A DNA stretch of 64,000 nucleotides from Caulobacter flavus. Its GTDB lineage: Bacteria > Pseudomonadota > Alphaproteobacteria > Caulobacterales > Caulobacteraceae. Both the position numbers and the translations under genes were made by a program. Shown one piece after another: positions 44,403 to 55,192 of this stretch. The stretch is taken from contig NZ_CP026100.1 in assembly GCF_003722335.1 (NCBI RefSeq), positions 4,004,001-4,068,000 on the forward strand, given 5' to 3'. Numbering within the stretch: position 1 is the first letter of the stretch; the number at the start of each line of letters is the position of its first letter. Below the pieces are notes generated by a model. It made no database searches, was not told the DNA's origin, and saw only the letters and a program-made list of their open reading frames with translations.

Positions 44403-45192
44403 GGAGCATCCGCTCTTCACGCTGGTCGAGATCATGGCCCGCCTGCGCGACCCGCAGAACGGCTGCCCGTGGGACATCGAGCAGACCTTCGGCACGATCG
44501 CGCCCTACACGATCGAGGAGGCCTACGAGGTCGCCGACGCCATCGAGCGCGGCGACCTGTCCGACCTGAAAGAGGAACTGGGCGACCTCCTGCTGCAGGT
44601 GGTGTTCCATTCCCGCATGGCCGAGGAGCAAGGCGTGTTCGACCTGGAGGACGTGGCCCGGTCGATCTCGGACAAGATGATCCGCCGGCACCCGCACGTG
44701 TTCGGCGACCATGCCTATGACGACCTGGCCGACCAGAAGGCCGGGTGGGAAGAGCTGAAGGCGCAGGAGCGCAAGGCCAAGAAGAAGGGCGGCGTGCTCG
44801 ACGACGTGCCGGCCGGCCTGCCCGCCCTGACCCGGGCGGTGAAGCTGACCAAGCGCGCGGCGCGCGTCGGCTTCGACTGGCCCTCGACCGACGAAGTGCT
44901 GGCCAAGCTGGCCGAGGAAGTCGCCGAGCTCCAGGTCGAGATCGAGGCCGGCGACCAGGCCAAGGCGCGCGAGGAGTTGGGCGACATCCTGTTCGTCTGC
45001 GCCAACCTGGCCCGCAAGCTGGATGTCGAACCCGAAGACGCCCTGCGCGCCACCAACGCCAAGTTCGCCCGCCGCTTCGCCTTCATCGAGGCGCAGTTGG
45101 CCAAGGACGGCCGCACGCCCGACCAGTCGGACCTGGCGGAGATGGACGCGCTGTGGGACGCGGCGAAGGCGGCGGAGAAGGCTGGCAAATAG
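44356..45192 (+). CDS. mazG: Nucleoside triphosphate pyrophosphohydrolase MazG
   Basis: A 278-residue tandem MazG protein that hydrolyses NTPs to NMP and pyrophosphate, limiting mutagenic or (p)ppGpp-linked pools. Two helical MazG domains carry E-x2-E/D metal sites: EEAYEVADAIERGDLSDLKEELGDLLLQVVFH in the first and EEVAELQVEIEAGD ... EELGDILFVCANLAR in the second. GCPWDIEQTF is the family entry motif. The start lies within the preceding symporter gene. Confidence 0.96.
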   Translation: MTASPTPAPRPPQPSEEHPLFTLVEIMARLRDPQNGCPWDIEQTFGTIAPYTIEEAYEVADAIERGDLSDLKEELGDLLLQVVFHSRMAEEQGVFDLEDVARSISDKMIRRHPHVFGDHAYDDLADQKAGWEELKAQERKAKKKGGVLDDVPAGLPALTRAVKLTKRAARVGFDWPSTDEVLAKLAEEVAELQVEIEAGDQAKAREELGDILFVCANLARKLDVEPEDALRATNAKFARRFAFIEAQLAKDGRTPDQSDLAEMDALWDAAKAAEKAGK

Positions 45193-45205
45193 CCCCCAGA
45201 AAGAT

Positions 45206-45307
45206 CGTCATCCCGGCCAGAGCGAAGCGCAGAGCCGGGACCCAGGAGCAGCCGCAACGCGCCGCCTCTGGGTCCCAGATAAGCCCTGCGGGCTTTCCGG
45301 GATGACG
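45206..45307. repeat. Long inverted repeat between convergent mazG and hflX
   Basis: CGTCATCCCGG and CCGGGATGACG are the outer arms, GGGACCCAGG and CTGGGTCCC the inner arms. It likely folds into a bidirectional terminator and resembles dispersed GTCATCCCGG-type repeats of related genomes. Confidence 0.7.
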
Positions 45308-45335
45308 AACTTTAGGAGGGCCAAGGAGAGTGAAA

Positions 45336-46688
45336 TCACTCCCCGATCGGCATCACCCACACGGTCGGGAACTGCCGTTCGAAGCGACCCAGGGCCTGCG
45401 GGTCCATGCGGGCCACCAGGCAGATTTCTCCATCCTCGGTGTCCTCGCGCTCGACCACCCGGCCGTTGCGATAGATCCAGGCCAGGGCTTCGCCGTCGGC
45501 GGGGCTAAGGCGAAGGGCCATCGGCGGGGTGTCGTCGATCAGCCCGCCGACCCGCTTGAGCAGCTCGGCGCAGCCTTCGCCGGTGACCGCGGAGACCGGC
45601 GAGGCGTCGACCCGCTTTGCGCGGCCTTCGAGGATCTCGCGCTCCTCGCCCTCGACCAGGTCGATCTTGTTCCACACCTCGACGACGGTCTTGCCGTCGT
45701 CGGCCGTGACCTTCAGCTCGGCCAGCACCGCCTGGACGTCGCGCGCCTGGGCGTCGGTGTCCGGGTTGGCGACGTCACGGACGTGCAGCACCACGTCGGC
45801 TTCCTGCACCTCCTCGAGGGTGGCGCGGAAGGCCTCGACCAGCTCGTGCGGCAGGTCGGAAATGAAGCCCACGGTGTCGGACAGGATGGCCGGGCGGCCG
45901 TCGGGCAGCTTCACCGTCCGCAAGGTCGGGTCGAGCGTGGCGAACAGCATGTCCTGGGCCACGACCTCGGCGTTGGTCAGGCGGTTGAACAGCGTCGACT
46001 TGCCGGCGTTGGTGTAACCCACCAGCGCCACCGTCGGGTACGGGACCTTCTTGCGGGCGCTGCGGTGCAGGGTGCGGGTGCGCCGCACCTCCTCCAGCTC
46101 GCGCTTGAGCTTGCCGATCGTGCCGGCGATCAGGCGCCGGTCGAGTTCGATCTGGGTTTCGCCGGGGCCGCCGGTCGAGCCGGTGCCGCCGCGCTGGCGC
46201 TCAAGGTGGGTCCAGGTGCGCACGAGGCGCGAGCGCTCGTAGTCGAGCCTGGCCAGTTCGACCTGCAGCTTGCCTTCGCGGGTGCGGGCGCGGCGGGCGA
46301 AGATCTCGAGGATCAGGCCCGTGCGGTCGACCACCTTGACGCCCAGGCCGCGCTCGAGATTGCGCTGCTGGACGGGGGTGAGCTGGTCGTCGAACACGGC
46401 GACGTCGATGTGCTCGACCTCGCAGATCGCCTTGAACTCGGCGATCTTGCCGCTGCCGAACAGGGTGGCGGGCGTGACGGCGCGAAGCGGCGCGATGGCC
46501 GTTTCGACGACGTCGAGATCGAGGGCGACGGCGAGGCCGACGGCCTCTTCGAGGCGCGCCTTGGGGTCGCGCGCCTCCAGAGCGGCCTGCCCGCGAGCAG
46601 GCCGCACCGGATGGATCACGAAGGCCCGAAGGATCGGGTCGGCGTGATCGATAAGTCCATCGGGGGACTTAGAAGTAGATTTTGACAA
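45336..46688 (-). CDS. hflX: Ribosome-associated GTPase HflX
   Basis: A 450-residue GTPase that splits stalled or heat-damaged 70S ribosomes. The N-terminal HflX domain includes TPATLFGSGKIAEFK and DDQLTPVQQRNLE; the G domain has G1 GYTNAGKST (about residue 226), G3 DTVGFI, G4 NKID and G5 SAVTGEG. The GGTGSTGGPGETQIELDRR linker is diagnostic. The best start is TTG at 46688, with AAGG 5 bases upstream and 13 bases after hfq; a later start is possible. Runs in the hfq-hflX order common in proteobacteria. Confidence 0.96.
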   Translation of the reverse strand: MSKSTSKSPDGLIDHADPILRAFVIHPVRPARGQAALEARDPKARLEEAVGLAVALDLDVVETAIAPLRAVTPATLFGSGKIAEFKAICEVEHIDVAVFDDQLTPVQQRNLERGLGVKVVDRTGLILEIFARRARTREGKLQVELARLDYERSRLVRTWTHLERQRGGTGSTGGPGETQIELDRRLIAGTIGKLKRELEEVRRTRTLHRSARKKVPYPTVALVGYTNAGKSTLFNRLTNAEVVAQDMLFATLDPTLRTVKLPDGRPAILSDTVGFISDLPHELVEAFRATLEEVQEADVVLHVRDVANPDTDAQARDVQAVLAELKVTADDGKTVVEVWNKIDLVEGEEREILEGRAKRVDASPVSAVTGEGCAELLKRVGGLIDDTPPMALRLSPADGEALAWIYRNGRVVEREDTEDGEICLVARMDPQALGRFERQFPTVWVMPIGE

Positions 46689-47948: not shown

Positions 47949-49336
47949 CTACTCTTCTTCCTCGCCGCGGCCGCCGGCCACGCCCAGGGACTTCAGCTTG
48001 CGGTGCAGCGCCGAGCGCTCCATGCCGATGAAGTTGGCCGTGCGCGAGATGTTGCCGCCGAACCGCAGGATCTGGGCGTTGAGGTACTCGCGCTCGAACA
48101 GTTCGCGGGCCTCGCGCAGCGGCAGGGCGATGATCCGCTCGGCGCCGATCGCGCCCGAGCCGCCGCTGGACGGCTGCTCGGAGGCGTTCAGCATCTCGGC
48201 GGTGATCAGGTCGCCTGGCTCGCCGGCGGCCAGGATCAGCATGCGTTCGACGTTGTTGCGCAGCTGGCGCACGTTGCCGGGCCAGGCCTGGACCTGCAGG
48301 GTCGCCAGGGCGTCCTCGCCCAGGCGGCGGCGCTGCATGCCGGTGGCCTCGCTGATCCGCTCGATGAAATAGGCGATCAGCTCGGGGATGTCCTCGCGGC
48401 GCTCGGCCAGGCCCGGCACGCGCACCGGCACCACGTTGAGGCGATGGAAAAGATCCTCGCGGAAGCGCCCGGCGGCGATCTCCTCGCGCAGATCGCGCGA
48501 GGTGGACGAGATCACCCGCACGTCGACCTGCACGTCGCTGTCGCCGCCGACGCGACGGAAGCGCTGCTCGACCAGCACCCGCAGGATGCGGCTCTGGGTC
48601 TCGCGCGGCATGTCGGCCACTTCGTCGAGATAGAGCGTGCCGCCGTGGGCGCGCTCGAACACGCCGATCTTGCGCGGGCGGCCGCCCTCGCCTTCCTCGC
48701 CGAACAGCTCGACGTCCAGGCGCTCGGGGCCATGCCGGCCGCGCTGACCGCCACGAACTCGGCCCGGGTGCGCGCGCTGGCGCCGTGGATCAGGCGGGCG
48801 ACCAGTTCCTTGCCCGACCCCGGCGGACCGGCGACGAGCACGCGGCTGTTGGCCGGGGCGACCTTGGCGATCATCTGACGCAGGGCCTGGGCGGCCTGCG
48901 ACTTGCCCATCAGGCCGTCGGAGGCGAAGCTCTGGGCTCGCAAGCGGCGGTTCTCGCGCTTGAGATTGGCCGCCTCCAGGGCCCGCTCGACCACCAGCAG
49001 CAGCCGGTCGGACTTGAATGGCTTCTCCAGGAACTCGTAGGCGCCGCGCTTGATGGCGCTGACGGCCGTCTCGATGTTGCCGTGGCCCGAGATCATGATC
49101 ACCGGGAGGTCGGCGTCGAGCGTCTTGACCATGTCGAGCAGCTCCAGCCCGTCCATGCCCCCGCCCTGCATCCAGATGTCGAGGACCAGCAGGGCCGGCT
49201 TGCGGGCGCGCAGCGCGGCCAGGGCCTGGTCGGCGTCGGCGGCCGTACGCACGGCGTAGCCTTCGTCCTCCAGGATGCCCGCCACCAGATCGCGGATGTC
49301 GACCTCGTCGTCGACCACCAGCACGTCGGCGCTCAT
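47949..49336 (-). pseudogene. ntrX: Response regulator NtrX, interrupted by a one-base frameshift
   Basis: Two overlapping frames together make an almost full-length NtrX. Frame 1 (from ATG 49336) gives a receiver domain with phosphoacceptor Asp53 (LLVLDIWMQ) and the AAA+ Walker A GPPGSGKE, and then becomes Ser/Ala/Arg-rich after GMAP (residue 204). Frame 2 continues as ERLDVELFGEEG, then GVFERAHGGTLYLDEVADMP, the AAA+ core and a Fis-type DNA-binding helix (LHRKLKSLGV). The gene length, 1388 bases, is not a multiple of three; restoring one base near 48725-48730 gives 462 residues. The GAFTGA loop is absent. Its ATG overlaps the ntrY stop (ATGA). Whether it is a true pseudogene or a sequencing error in the GGGG run cannot be decided here. 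Confidence 0.85.
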
Positions 49337-51576
49337 GTCATCTCCTCTACGCCGTTGGCAGTCGGCGCCGCGGCGAGCCGCGCCGACACCGGAAACTTCA
49401 GGACGACGCGCGCGCCGGCATGGCCGTGCGCGTCGGTGAGGACCAGCTCGCCGCCGTGGTCCTCCATGATCCGCTTGACGATGGCCAGGCCCAGGCCCGT
49501 CCCCTTCTCGCGGGTGGTCACATAGGGTTCGGCCAGCCGGTCGCGATCCTTCGCGGGCAGGCCGACGCCGTTGTCCTCGACGATGATGCACAGGGCTTCG
49601 TCGTCGGCGACCAGGGTCGCGTCGATCTGGCCGCGCGGCTCGGGCGTGACGTGGCGCCGCGCGCCGACCGCCTCGCCGGCGTTCTTCAGGATGTTGGTCA
49701 GGGCCTGGCCGACCATCCGCGCGTCGCAATTGACCCAGACCGCGCCGCCCGGCTCGTCGATGACGACATCGGTGTCGGCGTCGACGACGCGCTGGGCGAA
49801 GACGCCTGCGCGCAGCAGTTCGGCCAGGTCGGCCGGCGCGAAGCGGGGCGCGGGCATGCGGGCGAAGGCCGAGAACTCGTCGACCATCCGCCCGATGTCG
49901 CCGACCTGGCGGATGATGGTGTCGGTGCAGCGGTCGAAGGTCTCGAGATCGCCGGTGATGTCCTTGCGGTACTTGCGGCGGATGCGCTCGGCCGACAGCT
50001 GGATCGGCGTCAGCGGGTTCTTGATCTCGTGGGCGATGCGGCGGGCGACGTCCTTCCAGGCCGCGTTGCGCTGGGCCGCCATCAGGCGGGTGACGTCGTC
50101 GAAGGTCAGCACCTGGCCCTCGGCGGCGTGGCCGGCGGCGCGGACGCGCAGGCGCAGGGTCTCGCCGCCCCGCACCACGTCGATCTCGACCTCGGCGTCG
50201 GGGCGTCCCTGGCCGATCTCCTCCAGCACCTGGGCGAACTCTGGCGCGGCCTCGACCAGGTCCTGGCCCTCGGCGGCCTCGTCCAGCGCCAGGAGCTCGC
50301 TGGCGCGGCGATTGAGCGCCGAGATGCGACCCACGCCGTCCAGGCTGATCACCCCGGCGCTGACGCCAGACAGCACGGTCTCGATGAACTGGCGGCGCAG
50401 CTCAGCCTCGAGGCTGGCGTCCTTGAGGGCCGCCTGCTGGGTCTGAAGATCCGCCGTCATCATGTTGAAGGCGTTGGACAAGGCGCGGATTTCCTCCGGC
50501 CCGGCCTCGGCGTCGACGCGCGCATCCAGGTCGCCGGCCGACACCCGGCCTGCGGCCTGGACGAGGCCCGAGACCGGCGCCGCGATCGAGTTGGCGGCGG
50601 CGATGCCGACCCAGACGGCGGCGACCAGCACCAGCAGCGCTGTCTCCACGTAGCTGAGGCCGAAGATCGCCTGGATGCGGGCCCGGTTCACGGCGGCGTC
50701 GCGATAGGAGATCAGCGACTCTTCCGACTCGATCAGGTGGGCCAGGATGCCCTTGTCGATCGGCCGGGCGATGTAGAGGTAGCCGTCCGGAAAGCCCTTC
50801 AGCTTGTAGAGCGCCCGGAACAGGTCCTCGGACACGAAGCGCTGGGATGTGATCTCGCCGGTGTCGGTCCAGCGGAAGCTGGACGGCGGCGGGGCCAGGA
50901 ACGGCGGGGCGTCGGCCAGCTCGGCGCGCGCCAGGATCCGGCCGTCGCGGTCGAGGATGTAGGCCGAGGAGAAGCCATTGTCCTCGGCCAGGGTGCGCAG
51001 GAAGTGGCCGAACGCTACGGGGGATTCGGCCATGGCCGGGGCGGCGCTGTTCAGCGTCGCGGCCATCGGCCCCATGTGCTGGCTGATGTAGCTGGTCTGC
51101 TCGGAAACGTAGGAACGCGCCACGGTCGCCGAGTTCTCGACCACCGTCGTCACCCGCTTGCTGAACCAGCCGTCGACGCCGCGATTGACCAACAGCCCAA
51201 AGAACAGCGCCACGATCACCGCCGGCGCCACGGCCGCGACCGAGAACAGGCCCACGAACCGCAGGTGCAGGCGGGCGCCGGCGTCGCTGGAGCGGGCGTC
51301 GATCAAGTCGAGCAGGCGCCAGCCGACGATGGCGGCGACGCAGAGGATCAGGGCGAGGTTAAAGCCCAGCACCACGAGGATGGCGGTGCTGGCCGGCCCG
51401 ATGGGGCCGGTGGTCGGCGGCGAAGAGGCCAGGCCGACGCCAGTGGCCGTCAGGATCGCCGCCAGCACGTAGCCACCGCCCAGGACGTAGCGTGATCTCA
51501 AGAGCTCACGCCACCAGGACCGGCTGAAACGGCGCGGGCGGTCTTCCGATTCCGAAACTGACGGGACGGAACTCAT
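49333..51576 (-). CDS. ntrY: Nitrogen-regulation sensor histidine kinase NtrY
   Basis: A 747-residue membrane kinase. Several N-terminal membrane helices (within about 30-150) frame a periplasmic region, followed by a further helix near 310-330, HAMP, PAS, and HisKA/HATPase domains. Phosphorylated His516 is in [19 protein letters not shown] box ALTNILKNAGEA and G boxes EDNGVGLP and GTGLGLAIVK are intact. It is expected to phosphorylate NtrX, whose gene overlaps its stop. 70 bases separate it from ntrC. Confidence 0.96.
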   Translation of the reverse strand: MSSVPSVSESEDRPRRFSRSWWRELLRSRYVLGGGYVLAAILTATGVGLASSPPTTGPIGPASTAILVVLGFNLALILCVAAIVGWRLLDLIDARSSDAGARLHLRFVGLFSVAAVAPAVIVALFFGLLVNRGVDGWFSKRVTTVVENSATVARSYVSEQTSYISQHMGPMAATLNSAAPAMAESPVAFGHFLRTLAEDNGFSSAYILDRDGRILARAELADAPPFLAPPPSSFRWTDTGEITSQRFVSEDLFRALYKLKGFPDGYLYIARPIDKGILAHLIESEESLISYRDAAVNRARIQAIFGLSYVETALLVLVAAVWVGIAAANSIAAPVSGLVQAAGRVSAGDLDARVDAEAGPEEIRALSNAFNMMTADLQTQQAALKDASLEAELRRQFIETVLSGVSAGVISLDGVGRISALNRRASELLALDEAAEGQDLVEAAPEFAQVLEEIGQGRPDAEVEIDVVRGGETLRLRVRAAGHAAEGQVLTFDDVTRLMAAQRNAAWKDVARRIAHEIKNPLTPIQLSAERIRRKYRKDITGDLETFDRCTDTIIRQVGDIGRMVDEFSAFARMPAPRFAPADLAELLRAGVFAQRVVDADTDVVIDEPGGAVWVNCDARMVGQALTNILKNAGEAVGARRHVTPEPRGQIDATLVADDEALCIIVEDNGVGLPAKDRDRLAEPYVTTREKGTGLGLAIVKRIMEDHGGELVLTDAHGHAGARVVLKFPVSARLAAAPTANGVEEMT

Positions 51577-51646: not shown

Positions 51647-53068
<1,422 letters not shown>

Positions 53069-53072
53069 GTAC

Positions 53073-54188
53073 TCACGCGTCTCCCAAGGAAGGCTCAGGC
53101 GCCACGGGCAGCAACACGCGGAACACGGTGCGGCCGGGCTCGGATTCGAAATCGATCAGGCCCCCGTGGGCCGTCACGAGCTTGGTGACCAGGGCCAGGC
53201 CAAGGCCGGTGCCGTTGGCCTTGGTGGTCACGAAGGGCTGGAACAGGTGCTCGCGCAGGCTCTGCGGAACGCCAGGGCCGTTGTCCTGCACCCGGATCTC
53301 GATCGGGGCGCTGGACGCCGACTTGCCGTCGGCGCCGCGCACCCGGACGCCCGGGCGCCAGGCGGTGTGGATGGTCAGCTCGCCCTGTCCGTCGCCGCGC
53401 ATGTGGGCGGCCTCGGAGGCGTTCTTCACAAGGTTCAGGAAGATCTGGATCAGCTGGTCCTCGTCGCCCCAGACCGGCGGCAGCGAGGGATCGTAGTGGT
53501 CGCGCAGATACAGGCCGTCGGCGACGCCGTTGGCGACCAGGGCGCGCACGCGGTCCAGCACCTGGTGGATGTTGACCGCCTCGCGCGGGGTCGGCGCCTG
53601 CTCGGAGAACGCCTCCATGCGATCGACGAGGCGACGGATGCGGTCGGTCTCGTCGACGATCAGCTGGGCCAGCGGCTGATCGGCGGCGCTGGCGCCGGTC
53701 TTCAGCAACTGGGCCGCGCCGCGGATGCCGGCCAGCGGGTTCTTGATCTCGTGGGCCAGCATGCGGCCAAGGCCGACCACCGAGCGCAGGCCGGCCTGGT
53801 CGGCGCCGCGCTCGACGCCCAGCGCGCCCTTGACGTGCAGGGTCAGCAGCACCGAGCCGTCGCCAAGGGGCACGGCCGCGCCGTCGGCCTCGAACGGCGG
53901 CTGGCCGAACAGATTGACCTCTACGCCGTGCTCGCGGACCAGCGCGCCTTCGAACACGGCTCGGTCCATCAGCGAGACGAGCACCGAGCCCGGCGGCAGG
54001 GCCGCGCGGAAGCGGCCGCGCGCCAGCAGCGACAGGCCGTGCCCAAACAATGCCTCGGCCGACTCGTTGACGGCCACCAGGCCGCCCTCGCGGTCGACCA
54101 CCAGGGCAGGTTCGGGGCTGAGCTCGAAGGCGGAGGCCTTGAGGGCGTCCAACGCGGAGCCAGAGAGGATGCGGGCGCGGTCGGTCAT
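53073..54188 (-). CDS. ntrB: Nitrogen-regulation sensor histidine kinase NtrB (GlnL)
   Basis: A 371-residue soluble kinase/phosphatase acting on NtrC, normally controlled by PII. N-terminal PAS domain (about 20-125), then HisKA with His146 in [20 protein letters not shown] and HATPase with N box [19 protein letters not shown] and [12 protein letters not shown] overlaps the dusB stop (ATGA), so it is part of the dusB-ntrB-ntrC transcript. Confidence 0.96.
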
Positions 54189-55192
54189 GCGGCGATCCTC
54201 CCGCCAGCGAGCCACAGATCGGCCAGGGCGATTTCCAGGGCGGCCGGATCGTCGATCCGGCACAGGGCGGCGCGCGCGGCGCGGCGCGCCTCGGCGGTCT
54301 CGGGCCAGGGCGCGGCCTCGATGTACGAAGCCAGGTGCTTGCGGAACATCTTCAGCCCCTGGCGCTCGCCGTAGAACGACAAGCTGCGGCGGAAATGGGT
54401 GAGCGCGATGGCCAGGCGCTCCTCGGCCTGCGGCTCGACGAAGTCACGACCGTCCAGCGCGGCTTCGATGGCCTGGGCGATCCAGGGACGGCCATAGACG
54501 CCCCGTCCGATCATGACGCCGTCGGCGCCGGATTGCTCCAGCGCCCTGCGAGCGCTGTCGGCGTCGACGATGTCGCCATTGACCAGCACCGGCACCGAGA
54601 CGGCCCGCTTGACCGGCGCGACGGCGGCCCAGTCGGCCTCGCCCTTGTAGAACTGGCAGCGGGTGCGGCCGTGGACCGTGATGGCGCGGGCTCCGGCGGC
54701 TTCGGCGCGAGCGGCGATCTCGGGCGCATTGCGGCTGGCGTCGTCCCAGCCCAGGCGCATCTTGACCGTGACGGGCACGTCGACGGCCTGGACGGCGGCG
54801 GCGACCAGGGCCTCGGCCAGGTCGGGCTCGCGCATCAGGGCAGACCCCGAAGCGGCGCCGGCGGTGACTTCCTTGGCGGGGCAGCCGAAGTTGAGGTCGA
54901 TGATCTCGGCCCCGGCCTCGGCCGCCAGGCGGGCGCCCTGCGCCATGAACGCCGGATCGCGGCCGACGAGCTGTACGACCATAAGCGGCAGGCCTTCGCC
55001 GACGGCCGCGCGGCGGACGACGTCGGGCCGACCCTTCGCGAATTCCGCGCAGGCGACCATTTCGGTGGCCACGTATGATGCGCCGAGGCGCGTGGCCGTT
55101 TCTCTGAACGGGAGGTCGGACACGCCTGTCATCGGCGCAATCCATACCCGCCCGGGCACCGTGACGGCGCCGACTGCGAGCTGCTTGCTCAT
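54185..55192 (-). CDS. dusB: tRNA-dihydrouridine synthase DusB
   Basis: A 335-residue FMN enzyme (NifR3 family) that reduces uridine to dihydrouridine in the tRNA D-loop. TIM-barrel motifs: [12 protein letters not shown], the catalytic Cys in [37 protein letters not shown] and NGDI. It heads the ntr operon, the classic nifR3-ntrBC arrangement, and overlaps ntrB by four bases. Confidence 0.96.

Follow-up and report, generated by a model that had tools for sequence, protein, structure and literature searches.

The ntrX gene of the Caulobacter flavus assembly is divided over two reading frames by a single missing base, a confirmed break that lies far beyond chance and is shared by none of the relatives examined. 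We place a probability of about 0.64 on the base having been lost from a short G/C run in sequencing or assembly, in which case the locus would be an ordinary NtrX gene and the strain would make full-length NtrX. The gene was analysed within a window of 64,000 nucleotides (contig NZ_CP026100.1, positions 4,004,001 to 4,068,000), and window coordinates are used below unless the genome is named.

The ntrX locus is 1388 bases long, or 3 x 463 - 1, while that of a close relative is 1389. Translation from the ATG yields 274 amino acids and ends at 48512; residues 1-204 are NtrX-like and the other 70 are not. The similarity to NtrX exits the ATG frame after residue 204, at a G/C run at 48726-48729, and the next frame, from 48728, reads ERLDVELFGEEG... 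up to the normal NtrX end. Third-position GC likewise follows the ATG frame up to about this place and the second frame thereafter. The features of the locus and its neighbours are as follows.

47949..49336, minus strand: ntrX, whole locus, from ATG 49336 to the stop at 47949-47951
48725..49336, minus strand: ntrX part 1, residues 1-204, with receiver domain, linker and Walker A (ATG-frame translation, Pfam matches, NF051870)
48725..48730, minus strand: frame-break site in a short G/C run, with one base fewer than in relatives (comparison with relatives)
48512..48724, minus strand: out-of-frame tail of 70 non-NtrX residues, then a stop (ATG-frame translation)
47949..48728, minus strand: ntrX remainder in the next frame, with the Walker B side of AAA+, lid, Fis-type helix-turn-helix and normal stop (PF00158 67-167, PF25601, PF02954, NF051870)
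48806..48829, minus strand: GPPGSGKE, presumed Walker A, ATG frame
48618..48644, minus strand: GGTLYLDEV, presumed Walker B region, other frame
47991..48107, minus strand: Fis-type helix-turn-helix HTH_8 (PF02954), other frame, coordinates computed from residue positions
49333..51576, minus strand: ntrY, intact sensor kinase of 747 amino acids, its stop overlapping the ntrX start (ORF and domain matches)
51647..53068, minus strand: ntrC, intact, 473 amino acids (ORF and domain matches)
53073..54263, minus strand: ntrB-like histidine kinase ORF, open, 396 amino acids (named by position and by sequence, by eye)

These data bear out a preliminary description of the letters, which had claimed a one-base frameshift in ntrX at a C/G run near 48725-48730: two NtrX-like pieces stand in successive frames of the 1388 bases. 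Its estimate of about 274 residues for the ATG-frame product was exact, and the DNA-binding domain is absent from that product as it had said, HTH_8 sitting in the other frame.

Family models divide at the same place. The ATG-frame piece matches the receiver domain PF00072 at residues 5-116 (E 8e-30), and PF00158 (Sigma54_activat) is divided, with model positions 1-65 in the first piece and 67-167 in the next frame. Against NF051870, the NCBIfam model of NtrX, the first piece scores 325.9 bits at positions 2-205 and the second 420.9 bits at 203-452, so that neither alone attains the 600-bit cut-off, while the whole NtrX of a close relative (P0003) scores 759.3 bits. A receiver domain is thus present, whereas a complete AAA+ domain with a Fis-type helix-turn-helix does not follow it in its own frame. 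With Walker A at 48829-48806 and the Walker B region at 48644-48618, as we take these two motifs to be, the break lies in between and therefore cuts the AAA+ core in addition to removing the DNA-binding domain; it would abolish ATPase competence as well as DNA binding. Read over both frames, the sequence is near-identical to the whole NtrX of close relatives and shares with NF051870 and with C. crescentus NtrX (CC_1743 / CCNA_01817) the domain order, the adjoining ntrY and the upstream ntrC, but here the gene is divided by one base. By eye, the GAFTGA loop of sigma-54 activators is missing from both NtrC (51647-53068) and NtrX (47949-48728); excerpts of PMC10274813 describe Caulobacter NtrC and NtrX as being without this loop.

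The gene order ntrB-ntrC-ntrY-ntrX is present, with ntrB assigned by position and sequence only. A second ntrX is absent from the 5,659,202-base, one-contig genome, where no other match exceeds 41% identity. Elsewhere in the window, 45181-45336 marks the end of an inversion of roughly at least 100 kb relative to two close relatives; this end lies in a 155-base gap that contains a palindrome-like intergenic stretch and lies beside a gene that we presume to be hflX-like. Genome positions 4126000-4262000 are mostly without a match of at least 1500 bases in the compared parts of the same two relatives, and are possibly strain-specific or rearranged DNA.

We compared the junction with ntrX of related strains, a comparison that the preliminary description had suggested. 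By its closest named relatives the genome belongs with Caulobacter. Of 109 relative loci (from two genome-search sources of 29 and 80, with some genomes counted twice), 107 keep a single frame through the junction, and the other two (L023 and L051, both from strain BP25) are in frame at the junction and broken near residue 118, so that the break seen here occurs in 0 of the 109. In the wider family, 383 of 390 genomes, this one included, hold an ntrX match at 1e-80, and the seven that do not are at most 87% complete. We opened twelve genomes, namely this one and those with the lowest scores, and inspected most of their loci; six further low scorers were also opened, and the remaining genomes were judged by ntrX score, with alignment ranges for listed rows only. 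Among the genomes opened, ntrX is frame-broken in three: this one, BP25 (G030) and G101. It is ended by a contig edge in nine (G013, G015, G067, G075, G104, G217, G250, G371 and G401; for G015 this is taken from its row in the family-wide search), and in G257 and the six further low scorers the match lies in one open piece, which in G159 extends only to residue 425. A single near full-length ntrX match is present in 71 of 75 Caulobacter genomes, counting this one among the 75; the four exceptions are this genome, BP25 (broken elsewhere) and two with contig-end cuts. As a control, ntrC gave a 1e-180 match in 73 of the 75, the other two genomes being 61% and 70% complete. Two broken ntrX genes against no broken ntrC seen, with ntrC judged by match score, are too few to argue from.

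Substitutions in the gene indicate that the break is not old. Relative to six close relatives, ntrX carries 12 synonymous and no nonsynonymous changes of its own lineage (4 and 0 ahead of the break, 8 and 0 beyond it). No nonsynonymous change is present in five of these relatives either, and the sixth has nine. NtrY has 24 synonymous and three nonsynonymous own-specific changes, inside the range of the six relatives. The relaxed constraint of a pseudogene is thus not seen after the break, and neither gene shows decay, while a long-dead gene or a long-unpartnered sensor would carry more changes. A recent real mutation would show an equal lack of decay.

The quality of the assembly was assessed over 1.2 Mb of the 5.66 Mb genome, around the window, by DNA alignment to stretches of 798 kb and 400 kb from two relatives. 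Of this, some 524 kb found a counterpart in one of them (G021) and 327 kb in the other (G009), and about 303 kb were common to all three. Over the common part we counted 27 private one-base losses and 33 gains here, compared with 11 and 24, and 12 and 19, in the relatives. Given this genome's 0.35 share of substitutions, the losses are in excess (p 0.0045), with p 0.079 for the gains. Only the ntrX loss among the 27 passed a test for clean coding on both sides (threshold 0.7); of the near-misses, at genome positions 4381827 and 4337444, one lies just outside a gene and the other within a gene that aligns over its full length. G/C runs of at least five bases common to both relatives (~130) are one base shorter here in one or two cases, and the same test on the relatives gave 1/116 and 1/100, so shortened G/C runs show no excess here over the two relatives. 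A survey of gene segments found frame breaks in 2/143 here (ntrX and one at a gene start), and in 2/147 and 0/142 in the relatives, with in-frame stops, not inspected singly, numbering four here and two and three in the relatives.

Scanning the reading phase against G021 across some 320 kb of coding-like columns turned up four open-frame breaks here and five in G021, besides candidates without an open frame (7 here, 16 on the G021 side); inspection covered the open-frame ones. Seven places here, drawn from these and from the near-misses above, were inspected, and ntrX and 4502925 are interior breaks; the other two of the four open-frame listings comprise one at a gene start and one ambiguous case. 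The candidates at 4103812 and 4381827 were rejected as interior breaks because they sit at gene ends or starts, those at 4337444 and 4043640 were rejected as lying within whole genes, and 4448347 is an ambiguous candidate with a diverged N-terminus. The ~524 kb aligned with G021 therefore hold two clean interior breaks on this side, one in ntrX and one in a gene for a CoA-transferase of family III, while inspection of the five open-frame candidates in G021 yielded none. The CoA-transferase break (genome 4502921-4502924; L213 921-924) is private and of one base at a G/C-rich run, as is that of ntrX, and the pieces of this gene stand in one open frame in 8/8 close relatives. Good but incompletely polished long-read assemblies can hold two such breaks per half megabase or so, and G/C runs are favoured sites of consensus errors. 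The assembly is fairly clean and not riddled with such breaks; its error rate is low, perhaps not zero, and the second private break fits scattered residual errors. Two breaks against none are too few for proof of an error rate, and the comparison is not decisive.

A division of the gene that the cell itself uses has little to recommend it. Programmed ribosomal frameshifting or transcriptional slippage could join the two frames, both of which are conserved with the C-terminal part under full constraint; yet none of the 109 relative loci conserves the break, the generally known pattern of a canonical slippery heptamer is not seen by eye at the junction, and the RNA of 48650-48770 folds no better than shuffled sequences (z = -0.25), and this explanation is nearly excluded. 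The 237-residue ORF that begins at GTG 48662 might instead be an independently started C-terminal protein beside a separate receiver protein. We judge this highly improbable, as the GTG, unlike ATG 49336, has no purine-rich ribosome site before it (by eye), the AAA+ domain would be cut between Walker A and Walker B, and relatives carry one gene.

The remaining choice is between a consensus error and a genuine null mutation that arose very recently in the sequenced isolate and may have become fixed in culture, and we infer the former. It is favoured by the privacy of the break at the junction, by the lack of own-specific nonsynonymous changes and by the second private one-base break; finding the latter, in the CoA-transferase III gene, strengthened our preference. 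Against a real mutation, a similar one-base lesion in an unrelated metabolic gene would not be explained by selection on ntrX. A consensus error is further supported by the cost of ntrX loss for growth of C. crescentus in rich medium, given in excerpts of PMC9731502 and PMC5892882, and the part of PMC13001222 on a transposon screen gives ntrX a basally low fitness, which also speaks against a real mutation. Against an error, random errors should mostly strike genes, only 1 of the 27 private losses is a clean coding break, and G/C runs are not shortened in excess, the last of which would equally suit a mutation. A real mutation, which we regard as possible yet doubtful, also draws on the two family ntrX genes that are frame-broken at other places (BP25 and G101), and on a 4-base deletion in ntrX of a culture-attenuated Ehrlichia, as excerpts of PMC9937504 have it. 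Excerpts of PMC9731502 add that in C. crescentus ntrX loss partly rescues chvI mutants, and attribute to unphosphorylated NtrX a repression of growth in synthetic medium. However, compensation through a broken chvG or chvI, whose loss would favour loss of ntrX, was rejected here, as both genes are open; ChvG reaches a score of 897.5 where the cut-off is 740, and chvI was identified by place and OmpR-type matches only.

The two readings differ in what NtrY would meet. With a consensus error, NtrY would act on the receiver of a full-length NtrX, whose AAA+ and helix-turn-helix domains would function at the promoters it controls, as they do elsewhere in Caulobacter. With a real mutation, NtrY would act on a 274-residue product of receiver and partial AAA+, without Walker B, lid or helix-turn-helix; targets under NtrX repression would be freed, and the strain would grow less well in rich medium. 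The 70 foreign residues may make the truncated product unstable. In C. crescentus, excerpts of PMC11005374 and PMC9731502 propose that NtrY acts mainly as an NtrX phosphatase, and describe NtrX as binding, and apparently repressing, the promoter of the sRNA RusT, in a system linked to ChvGI.

The other broken copies differ in their lesions. Caulobacter sp. BP25 (L051 3390-4777) resembles the present strain in carrying a frame-broken ntrX, but its break lies near residue 118, where by eye four bases are lacking from a GC-repeat stretch; its ntrY and the gene after ntrX are open. In G101 (C1:1931034-1932408; L188, L192), the third frame-broken ntrX in the family, the break is near residues 245-248. 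The three copies sit in assemblies of 1, 3 and 20 contigs, which hints at long-read sequencing. In excerpts of PMC9937504, the culture-attenuated Senegal strain of Ehrlichia ruminantium likewise has an ntrX frame break in a passaged strain, although there the organism is another one, the 4-base deletion disrupting ntrX is attributed to gene conversion, and the stop falls between the receiver and sigma-interaction regions. Our literature search, in the parts of the papers it covered, found no earlier report of an ntrX frameshift in Caulobacter. The two further broken frames leave recurrent loss in culture a weak idea: cultured isolates of Caulobacter and its family would have lost ntrX time and again, each independently, as an adaptation to growth in laboratory medium, with this genome as one case in which the 274-residue receiver remnant could still occupy NtrY. 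This seems to us improbable.

A one-base break that is private to one genome, in a conserved gene, is an ordinary kind of observation and does not point to a novel type of gene. Should the break be an error, comparative work on NtrYX should not count the divided state of this conserved envelope regulator as a loss. If the break is real, it would add to the signs of possible ntrX loss in culture, and the strain, a naturally occurring ntrX mutant whose ntrY, chvG and chvI are open, would be useful for probing an unpaired NtrY.
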